Shown: positions 1-12,553 of the stretch, in pieces
How positions within the stretch are numbered: position 1 is the stretch's first letter
How the letters are laid out: each line of letters opens with the position of its first letter
Assembly (NCBI GenBank): GCA_947476145.1
Contig: CANJPH010000005.1
Coordinates: 1-64,000, forward strand
Source: Bacteroidota bacterium
GTDB lineage: Bacteria; Bacteroidota; Bacteroidia; Chitinophagales; Chitinophagaceae
Length of the DNA: 64,000 nt
Direction of reading: 5' to 3'
Program-made: the position numbers and the translations under genes
Notes under the pieces: model-generated
Database searches by the model: none
What the model was told of the DNA's origin: nothing
Seen by the model: only the letters and a program-made list of their open reading frames with translations

Positions 1-75
1 CTAAATCGAAAGATACGGTGAAGGCATAGTCCAGACTACAAACCGGAGTAGGGTGGTGAAAACCATAGTAGTAAG
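1..75 (+). ncRNA. Group I intron, 3' part (in tRNA-Leu), cut by window start
   Basis: The sequence carries the 3' core typical of small bacterial tRNA group I introns. A segment reading AAGGCATAGTCC (21-32) corresponds to the P7 3' strand region. ACTAC (35-39) can pair with GTAGT (68-72), enclosing a perfect TGGT-GAAA-ACCA tetraloop hairpin (54-65), which I read as P9. The element ends in G75, as group I introns do (omega G), directly before a tRNA 3' exon starting AAAATCC. The arrangement closely parallels the cyanobacterial tRNA-Leu(UAA) intron as I know it. The 5' exon, P1-P6 and the guanosine site lie outside the window. No homing endonuclease is visible in the part present. Confidence 0.82.
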
Positions 76-126
76 AAAATCCTGTGGGCCGCAACGCCCG
101 TGCGGGTTCGATTCCCGCCTGGGGCA
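76..126 (+). tRNA. tRNA-Leu (probably UAA), 3' exon only
   Basis: This is the 3' half of a class II tRNA: anticodon-loop bases AAAA, anticodon stem 3' strand (80-84), a long variable arm GGGC/GCCC (86-99), a T arm GCGGG-TTCGATT-CCCGC (102-118), acceptor strand CTGGGGC (119-125) and discriminator A126. A long variable arm with A35-A36 following the splice site fits only leucine NAA anticodons. The intron position (after U34) is the classic one for UAA. CCA is not encoded (the next bases are CAA), so it must be added post-transcriptionally. The anticodon's first base and the 5' half lie outside the window, so UAA rather than CAA is inferred. Confidence 0.85.
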
Positions 127-130
127 CAAA

Positions 131-159
131 GCCTCTCACGAATGTGAGAGGCTTTTTTT
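131..159 (+). terminator. Intrinsic terminator of tRNA-Leu
   Basis: A 9-bp perfect stem, GCCTCTCAC with GTGAGAGGC around a GAAT loop, is followed by seven Ts. It starts 4 bases after the mature tRNA 3' end. Confidence 0.9.
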
Positions 160-160
160 A

Positions 161-249
161 TGCGAAACAACTTCGAAAGCTCGCTTTCGTAAGTTGGGGC
201 GCATAAAAAAAGCCAATTAAAATGCAAAGCATTTTAATTGAAAGGCTTT
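161..249. repeat. Two adjacent large inverted repeats
   Basis: The first hairpin (161-203) has outer arms TGCG/CGCA and inner arms CAACTT+CGAAAG against CTTTCG+AAGTTG around CTCG. The second (about 208-249) nests AATTAAAATGC-AAA-GCATTTTAATT (215-239) inside AAAGCC/GGCTTT arms. Neither ends in a clean poly-T tract on the plus strand, so they are not obvious extra terminators. No gene is visible here. Confidence 0.7.
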
Positions 250-383
250 GGGTAAGACCCGATATCGAGGAAGACGTTTTGAGCAGAGCGAGAAACGGCA
301 GTCCCTAAGTATTAATTGAAAGGCTTTGGGTAAGACCCGATATCGAGGAAGACGTTTTGAGCAGAGCGAGAAACGGCAGTCCC
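234..383. repeat. 72-bp direct repeat, two copies (234-305 and 312-383)
   Basis: Two apparently identical 72-bp copies lie 78 bp apart. Each starts TTAATTGAAAGGCTTTGGG and ends CGGCAGTCCC. Internally each has GGGT-aag-ACCC, the palindrome CGATATCG, and CGTTT...AAACG arms that could form a hairpin. The copy boundary includes the right arm of the neighbouring inverted repeat, so the duplication also copied part of that hairpin. No ORF is credible here. Origin unknown. Confidence 0.85.
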
Positions 384-447
384 CGATATCGAGGAAGACG
401 GCGAATAAGAAGACGCGAATGAGCGTCTGATGGAAGCCGGCAGTCCC
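382..447. repeat. Third, divergent copy of the intergenic repeat
   Basis: The left border CCGATATCGAGGAAGACG (383-400) and the right border CGGCAGTCCC (438-447) match the two upstream copies. The interior is different and contains its own hairpin, AGACGC-GAATGA-GCGTCT. Conserved borders with a changed, still palindromic interior suggest a dispersed structured repeat family rather than simple slippage. Confidence 0.65.
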
Positions 448-495
448 GTTTCTCTCCGTATCTTAGCACCAATTATTTTTCTTTAATAAATCACT

Positions 496-9979: not shown

Positions 9980-10048
9980 TTTTTATATTTAACTATTCAT
10001 AAATGGGAACAGGAATAATAAGCTATGAGAAGTGCACGAGTGGTGCGG

Positions 10049-10123
10049 TACCTTCCCTTCGCAGGCATTACCCTGTTCAGGTTCAACGGGTTTTATCTCA
10101 GCTTTTTACAGCACCCCGAGGAC
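10049..10123 (-). promoter_or_regulatory. TPP riboswitch (THI element)
   Basis: On the minus strand the leader of the receptor gene reads CTCGGGGTGC (10120-10111), GCTGAGAT, ACCCGTTGAACCTGA, CAGGGTAATGCCTGC and GAAGGGAAGG (10060-10051). These are all the conserved THI-box blocks in the right order. P3 is very short. Downstream, GCAC-cactc-GTGC can form a small hairpin that may be part of the expression platform. About 70 bases separate the aptamer from the ATG. High TPP is expected to repress the receptor. I see no strong poly-U terminator, so translational control is more likely. Confidence 0.95.
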
Positions 10124-10208
10124 ATGACAAAACTAATACCTTAGCTTTAATCTACCAATTGTAACTTTAGTTTCTAATTTTCGTTATACGATAAATAACT
10201 TCACAAGT

Positions 10209-12344: not shown

Positions 12345-12553
12345 AATATTTTGTTTTAGAATTCCTACTCATATGGCTTTTCGGAAACGCCCCGTTTTTA
12401 AATTGGTTGCTGGACTCCATTTACATATTATAAATATAGTATATTAAATTCAAAATATTTATTTAAATTATTATATGAAAATAGGTGCCGCTACCCTCAA
12501 TCAGCCCCTGTTTTTACTCATTATTTACCAATTCCTCATACATCCCCTAAAAC

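Follow-up and report, generated by a model that had tools for sequence, protein, structure and literature searches.

The tRNA-Leu(UAA) Locus

The window, by which is meant the whole stretch of 64,000 nucleotides that was analyzed, starts at the first base of contig C5 of a Bacteroidota genome (G000) whose genus is taken as Sediminibacterium (Chitinophagaceae). Its first 126 nucleotides comprise two parts, both on the forward strand. The first part (1–75) is the 3′ portion of a group I intron (roughly 75 nt out of some 219), the only portion visible there as the contig begins within the element. It includes the 3′ strand of P8 (17–20, +; taken from the structure counted on relatives) and, placed by alignment with complete relatives, J8/7 (21–26, +), the 3′ strand of P7 (UAGUC, 27–31, +) and P9 (35–72, +; positions 35–39 pair with 68–72), which encloses a GAAA-capped P9b (54–65). 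The 5′ strand of P7 (GACUA, seen in relatives) and almost all of the 5′ strand of P8 fall in an assembly gap. The intron ends with a terminal G (75, +) followed by the 3′ splice site at 75|76. The second part (76–126, +) is the 3′ exon of a class II tRNA-Leu(UAA), which, according to its sequence and to its relatives, extends from A35 to the discriminator A73 and does not encode CCA. A terminator-like hairpin with a run of T was read by eye 3′ of the gene (129–159, +). Elsewhere in the window, a TPP riboswitch (10037–10128, −) and a DUF805 RNA motif (12358–12425, −) score above the Rfam cut-off.

ARAGORN and Rfam reported neither a tRNA-Leu nor a group I intron on the window fragment, and positions 1–75 alone show no unusual folding stability (z −0.88), so the identity of the element was decided by its relatives. 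BLAST comparison with 60 genomes yielded full-length matches to positions 1–126 in 10 of them (G000 itself and nine relatives, the latter with E 1.3e-48 or better, by which a chance match was dismissed); the others match only from base 76, which sets the intron/exon boundary at 75|76. In complete relatives ARAGORN finds a tRNA-Leu(taa) with an intron of 217–219 nt, and in intronless relatives a tRNA-Leu(taa) with a clean empty site, in both cases behind a tRNA-Gly gene. The missing 5′ half was located on a second contig of the window's genome (G000:C51:4365-4600), where tRNA-Gly is followed by a tRNA-Leu 5′ exon ending in GGACTT, 70 nt of intron and the contig end; about 74 nt of intron core, as estimated from relatives, are absent from both contigs. 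A contig likewise ends within the intron in five of the nine full-match relatives, perhaps because co-assembled species carry nearly identical introns.

The original prediction, drawn from the letters of the window, held that a group I intron interrupts tRNA-Leu(UAA) of a Bacteroidota chromosome. Complete relatives, empty sites and covariation bear this out, and positions 1–126 are confirmed as the 3′ end of a group I intron plus the 3′ exon of tRNA-Leu(UAA). The signs on which it relied are in place (the P7 3′ strand, the GAAA cap, which sits on P9b within P9, the terminal G, and a class II tRNA 3′ half starting with A35-A36 next to the splice site), as are the tRNA 5′ half with a 5′ exon ending in CUU and the U-G pair (U34-G) at the 5′ splice site that it anticipated upstream.

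The Group I Fold

As modeled, the element is a small group I intron (self-splicing type, IC3-like) inserted between U34 and A35 of a chromosomal tRNA-Leu(UAA), which agrees with the predicted insertion at the point used by the cyanobacterial and plastid intron. The subgroup label IC3 is our assumption, as is the resemblance of the core to that of the Azoarcus tRNA-Ile intron. The structure (P2, P3, P4, P5, P6, P6a, P7, P8, P9, and P9b) was drawn manually on a single phage row, itself among the rows counted. Over 43 introns, the 46 hand-placed pairs are formed in 96.6% of cells vs. 76.2% in shuffles, 31 of the 46 pairs show changes on both sides, and covariation reaches 0.570 vs. 0.185 in shuffled alignments and at most 0.111 when the structure is slid. 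The catalytic core P3–P8 with its P3/P7 pseudoknot is thus supported by covariation, seen on relatives and on other introns of this type; of the structure, the window includes only the part from the P8 3′ strand to P9. The guide GAG is invariant (43/43 rows), and the 5′ exons end in GGACTT (GGACTC in L102, a Bdellovibrionota contig), which gives U34-G at the splice site; the junction called by ARAGORN is off by one base or more in some rows.

The Rfam model RF00028 spans the complete intron of one relative (L003, 1361–1554) from end to end with 38.5 bits (E 1.3e-8), a score below the curated cut-off of 50 bits and obtained only with a short query and permissive filters. With default settings and longer queries RF00028 had no match on the window, on its own genome or on long relatives. 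Seven loci whose group members come from phages, Betaproteobacteria, Bdellovibrionota, and Bradyrhizobium likewise yielded none at the cut-off, so the shortfall is taken as a limit of the model and not as a failed fold.

Relatives in Phages and Other Bacteria

A pattern scan of named genomes gave 119 listed matches, of which at least 48 qualify as introns; the 71 other rows are unconfirmed and include real introns cut by a contig end (e.g., L114). Among the matches listed, the hosts are mainly Sediminibacterium-like Bacteroidota and Betaproteobacteria, with a few others, for instance Bdellovibrionota with an intron in tRNA-Leu(CAA). The betaproteobacterial Leu introns mostly measure 212–229 nt.

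The same pattern is frequent in predicted-viral sequences: among the 120 IMG/VR matches listed, at least 107 qualify as introns in a tRNA gene, at least 88 are tRNA-Leu(taa) genes with an intron according to ARAGORN, and at least 17 introns exceed 500 nt. A 45-nt core stretch typical of Sediminibacterium has an exact match in one IMG/VR contig (L197). Among eight phage contigs taken from the closest of the matches listed, five carry a terminase domain; the terminase of contig L193 shares 52% identity with its counterpart in Flavobacterium phage immuto, and that of L197 is only distantly related to known terminases. Of four phage loci to which Rfam was applied, three have other tRNA genes nearby. 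No integrase was found in five phage contigs, and the viral contigs searched held no match to the cyanobacterial pattern.

A covariance model (R1, built on A1 without any cyanobacterial intron) was used to estimate how widespread such introns are. With strict filters, which make the counts lower bounds, it matches 30 of 395 Bacteroidota genomes, 40 of 396 at the level of the order, and 50 of 146 in the cyanobacterial phylum; it misses the split intron of the window's own genome. In the 28 Bacteroidota loci inspected, the intron occupies the identical Leu position, lies one base further upstream, or interrupts a tRNA with a 3′ exon starting with CAT; four of these introns are 715–725 nt long. 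On the basis of these matches and loci, group I introns in tRNA genes are not rare in Bacteroidota.

Several further introns were encountered in these searches. Seven tRNA-Leu introns of 660–922 nt (L179, L192, L221, L415, L431, L438, and L439) contain HNH frames in various loops, one of them on the opposite strand, and some lie on Bacteroidota chromosomes. A Bradyrhizobium plasmid typed as conjugative (CP094621.1; L023, 4826–5116) carries a tRNA-Leu(taa) with a 204-nt group I intron. Genes called tRNA-Leu(CAA) hold group I introns in three Bdellovibrionota contigs (L102, L105, and L141) and in a contig titled as a Streptomyces griseus MAG (L123).

Kinship of the Sediminibacterium Intron

Two intron trees were examined. 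In the first, with 80 introns and a bootstrap that had not settled, the 11 Sediminibacterium introns form one clade (100/98) inside a 19-row clade that also includes eight phage introns (92/99), four of which have an HNH gene inside. The second tree (98 introns) takes in 17 cyanobacterial introns and 21 from other Bacteroidota chromosomes. Here Sediminibacterium groups with three phage rows, two of them identical, in a 10-row clade (95/88), and the enclosing 35-row clade (97/98) comprises 27 phage rows, one Bdellovibrionota row and seven Sediminibacterium rows. A clade that joins Sediminibacterium to introns of other Bacteroidota at this Leu position is rejected by AU tests (p 0.011), and so is one with the betaproteobacterial introns (p 0.0245). 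Membership of the Sediminibacterium intron in a lineage of phage tRNA-Leu introns is supported by the trees.

The original prediction raised the question of shared ancestry with the cyanobacterial intron versus transfer to the same site. Kinship with that intron, whether by common descent or by direct transfer, would account for the identical insertion site and for the many cyanobacterial genomes matched by R1, and a joint clade is not rejected by the AU test (p 0.135). In the 98-intron tree, however, the classical cyanobacterial Leu introns form a clade of their own (100/98), apart from the 35-row phage clade, and this origin is regarded as very improbable. The part of the prediction that considered transfer is thus favored by the tree, with the source pointing to phage tRNA-Leu genes rather than to cyanobacteria.

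Phages might instead have acquired intron-bearing tRNA-Leu genes from Bacteroidota hosts. By eye, the tRNA exons of phage contigs L193 and L197 look like those of Sediminibacterium, and trees in which the phage introns form one group without Sediminibacterium are not rejected (AU p 0.11 and 0.18); since the AU tests do not force Sediminibacterium within the phage rows, both the nesting and the direction are read from the tree topology. Against such an exchange, the 27 phage rows are deep and surround a single shallow Sediminibacterium clade, and within the larger clade that holds both, introns with an endonuclease gene inside are seen in phages, not in Sediminibacterium. Passage from host to phage appears quite unlikely, and transfer from phages to Sediminibacterium is the direction suggested by the topology.

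Turnover Within Sediminibacterium

Comparison with relatives revealed two features beyond what the window sequence alone shows, namely turnover of the intron at the species level and an endonuclease gene beside it. The intron sequence occurs in at least 26 of the 121 genomes of the genus, most of which are drafts or MAGs, and for 36 of the 38 genomes retrieved as intronless, ARAGORN confirms this state. On a RecA tree of 50 genomes, which leaves out those without a full recA gene (including G004, G026, and G100 among the 20 intron-bearing genomes counted below), the distribution of the intron needs at least 17 gains or losses, 12 of them forced by well supported branches; 340–346 of 500 shuffled labelings require as few changes, i.e., presence is without phylogenetic signal. 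A MazG tree of 38 rows gives 12 changes, eight of them forced, with 174–210 of 500 shuffles as low. Since the MazG and tRNA genes come from one and the same retrieved stretch, this turnover is not explained by binning errors alone. At the finest scale, an intronless contig end (G026:C129) is 97.1% identical over 2103 nt to the upstream flank of an intron-bearing species (G093).

These data bear on the alternative that the intron is old and vertically inherited, with a single entry into the ancestor of a Sediminibacterium subclade, many precise losses, no ongoing homing, and an HNH gene that is a hitchhiker. Part of the history of the intron does appear vertical, since in 13 genomes with a complete intron and recA (mean difference 4.2% for introns and 14.6% for recA) the distances between introns are correlated with those between RecA sequences (Mantel r 0.40, p 0.0018); besides, the Sediminibacterium introns form one clade and some clade mates have P9 and exon variants in common. 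The number of changes, the lack of phylogenetic signal and the nearly identical upstream flank of an empty allele argue against a purely vertical history, and precise loss requires a mechanism of its own. The endonuclease gene described below, which is confined to intron-bearing loci and kept by purifying selection, also counts against it. All in all, this scenario is considered unlikely, and an intron that is still on the move is preferred.

The HNH Endonuclease Gene Beside the tRNA

A search of Sediminibacterium loci for kin of the phage endonucleases identified a free-standing HNH gene downstream of the tRNA. It is present in 8 of 20 intron-bearing genomes and in none of 29 intronless ones (Fisher p 2.8e-4; p 0.0035 when the comparison is limited to the 18 intronless genomes that fall within the intron-bearing RecA subclade), counting loci with a 3′ flank of more than 900 nt and a recognized 3′ exon; the intron-bearing genome G024, where an HNH gene reaches the contig end, is outside this count. 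Phylogenetically independent pairs are on average 2.6 for the association, 0 against and 2.4 neutral (median p 0.25, a sign test on few rows). The corresponding stretch of the window (127–495, +) was found to hold no HNH gene, and the window's genome is one of the 12 intron-bearing genomes in which the gene is absent from the locus; a search for relics in these 12 gave a best match with E 0.19. Genome G143 has two intron-bearing contigs, only one of which carries the gene.

Seven of the eight HNH frames are intact (145–147 codons), that of G114 being shortened, and the seven proteins are 71–92% identical to each other. Their median dN is 0.17 vs. a dS of about 2 (based on the 17 of 21 pairs with a dS, hence on few rows), which indicates purifying selection. 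The one protein that was scanned matches PF01844 and phage HNH families.

Between G122 and G130 the sequence is collinear on either side, and the two loci differ at the intron and, separately, at the HNH stretch; the same applies to G109 and G012, where the intronless partner has more than 1 kb of other DNA at the place of the HNH gene. The layout with a free-standing HNH gene beside the tRNA recurs in phage contig L193, which carries one of the closest introns; its HNH protein is 44–50% identical to those of Sediminibacterium.

In phages both arrangements of the endonuclease occur. The 120 listed rows, less 12 that are not real and 23 duplicates, correspond to 85 distinct phage introns, of which at least 8 have an HNH gene inside, at least 19 have one flanking the tRNA (14 downstream and 5 upstream among the matches listed) and 58 have none, the last figure including L179, whose internal HNH frame is on the opposite strand. 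A search started from the HNH gene found that 16 of the best 80 of 224 viral loci hold an intron adjacent to the gene or within about 630 nt of it; this count keeps copies of the same phage, shares some phages with the intron-started set, and omits a weak match on the opposite strand (L533). An ORF-less intron and a free-standing endonuclease gene linked to one host gene thus occur together in relatives of the window's genome, not in that genome itself.

Two additional observations concern this region. A direct repeat with a 78-nt period is present downstream of the tRNA gene in the window (241–395; AAAGGCTTTGGGTAAGACC at 241 and 319), and G130 has three tandem matches to a G122 stretch resembling this repeat, near the place of the HNH gene in other species. 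The motif AGACAC occurs early in the P1 loop in 4 of 7 distinct Sediminibacterium introns, 2 of 9 long phage introns, and none of 34 short phage and 14 betaproteobacterial introns; the idea that the P1-loop hairpin of Sediminibacterium is a relic of a lost endonuclease gene was judged too weak to claim.

Proposed Mode of Spread

The explanation regarded as probable is that of a phage-derived intron which moves by collaborative homing and of which the window holds a copy without the HNH gene. The transcript of the gene is predicted to fold into P1 with U34-G, P3–P9 and a pseudoknotted P3/P7, and the intron would be excised by two guanosine-started transesterifications that restore the UAA anticodon. 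As suggested by the tree, the intron would have reached Sediminibacterium from phages. The HNH enzyme, judging from its linkage and layout, may cut or nick the tRNA-Leu site of an intronless allele, after which repair templated by a copy with the intron would install the intron and sometimes also the endonuclease gene. Once targets are exhausted, the endonuclease gene would decay, as in the window's genome, and the intron would then be lost, leaving an empty site open to renewed invasion, with which the cycle would restart. The allele states observed are intron with HNH gene, intron without it, and neither.

A more far-reaching version, in which a phage-borne ORF-less intron and a separate HNH gene invade, degrade and re-invade tRNA-Leu(UAA) of Sediminibacterium in a live cycle, and phages with the same pair among their tRNA genes serve as both shuttle and reservoir, is plausible with slightly less than an even chance of being right.

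With its kin in phage tRNA genes, its presence or absence among sister species and an adjacent homing-type endonuclease gene in several of them, the locus provides a natural test case for the spread of introns between viruses and bacteria. As closely related genomes have alleles with the intron, alleles with the endonuclease gene, and empty ones, the gain and loss of introns and the way in which composite mobile introns arise become directly testable in bacteria. The case is also a warning that such tRNA genes can be missed or broken by the Rfam cut-off, by tRNA finders applied to fragments and by assemblies.

Comparison With Known Systems

A gammaproteobacterial tRNA-Leu(UAA) intron was reportedly published in 2002. 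Among the tRNA group I introns named in sections of the literature are those of cyanobacteria and a few alpha- and betaproteobacteria (PMC4033280), with the Azoarcus tRNA-Ile intron as the named proteobacterial case (PMC3984707), as well as fMet and Ile2 tRNA introns (PMC8450103) and introns in some tRNAs of genomes from a study mainly on CPR bacteria (PMC8172020). A literature search, with subscription papers largely outside its scope, recognized no report of tRNA introns in Bacteroidota or phages by title or abstract start. In the relevant passages of a 2014 review, the phage introns then known were all in protein-coding genes despite the many tRNA genes of phages, and little evidence was seen of bacterial introns moving between species (PMC3984707). 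In the present data, at least 107 of the 120 predicted-viral stretches listed qualify as carrying an intron within a tRNA gene, and at a single site in one bacterial genus, sister species differ in whether they have the intron. Phages as carriers are not a new idea, since the likeness of some Bacillus introns to phage introns had already been noted in the same source (PMC3984707).

The cyanobacterial tRNA-Leu(UAA) intron, described as ancestral in part of one source (PMC4033280), shares with that of Sediminibacterium the host gene, the position between U34 and A35 and the general fold, and is found by model R1. It differs by its separate clade in the tree, a separation that the AU test leaves short of significance, and the Sediminibacterium intron is, unlike it, patchy at the species level and flanked by an HNH gene in some relatives. 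The betaproteobacterial Leu introns are similar in length but belong to a separate tree group, a joint clade being rejected.

In collaborative (trans) homing, a free-standing endonuclease targets the insertion site of an ORF-less intron; the process is known from phages, with one named case in psbA, according to the section of the review that deals with it (PMC3984707, where Zeng, Bonocora and Shub 2009 is cited). The Sediminibacterium locus is similar in that an ORF-less intron is combined with a free-standing endonuclease gene adjoining the host gene, and differs in that the genes concerned are tRNA genes, both on bacterial chromosomes and in phages. A further parallel is the recurrent invasion and loss that Goddard and Burt reportedly described in 1999 for an rRNA intron of yeast mitochondria that contains its endonuclease gene. 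There as here, closely related species show the full state, the state without endonuclease and the empty state, whereas in Sediminibacterium the endonuclease gene lies outside the intron and the hosts are bacteria.
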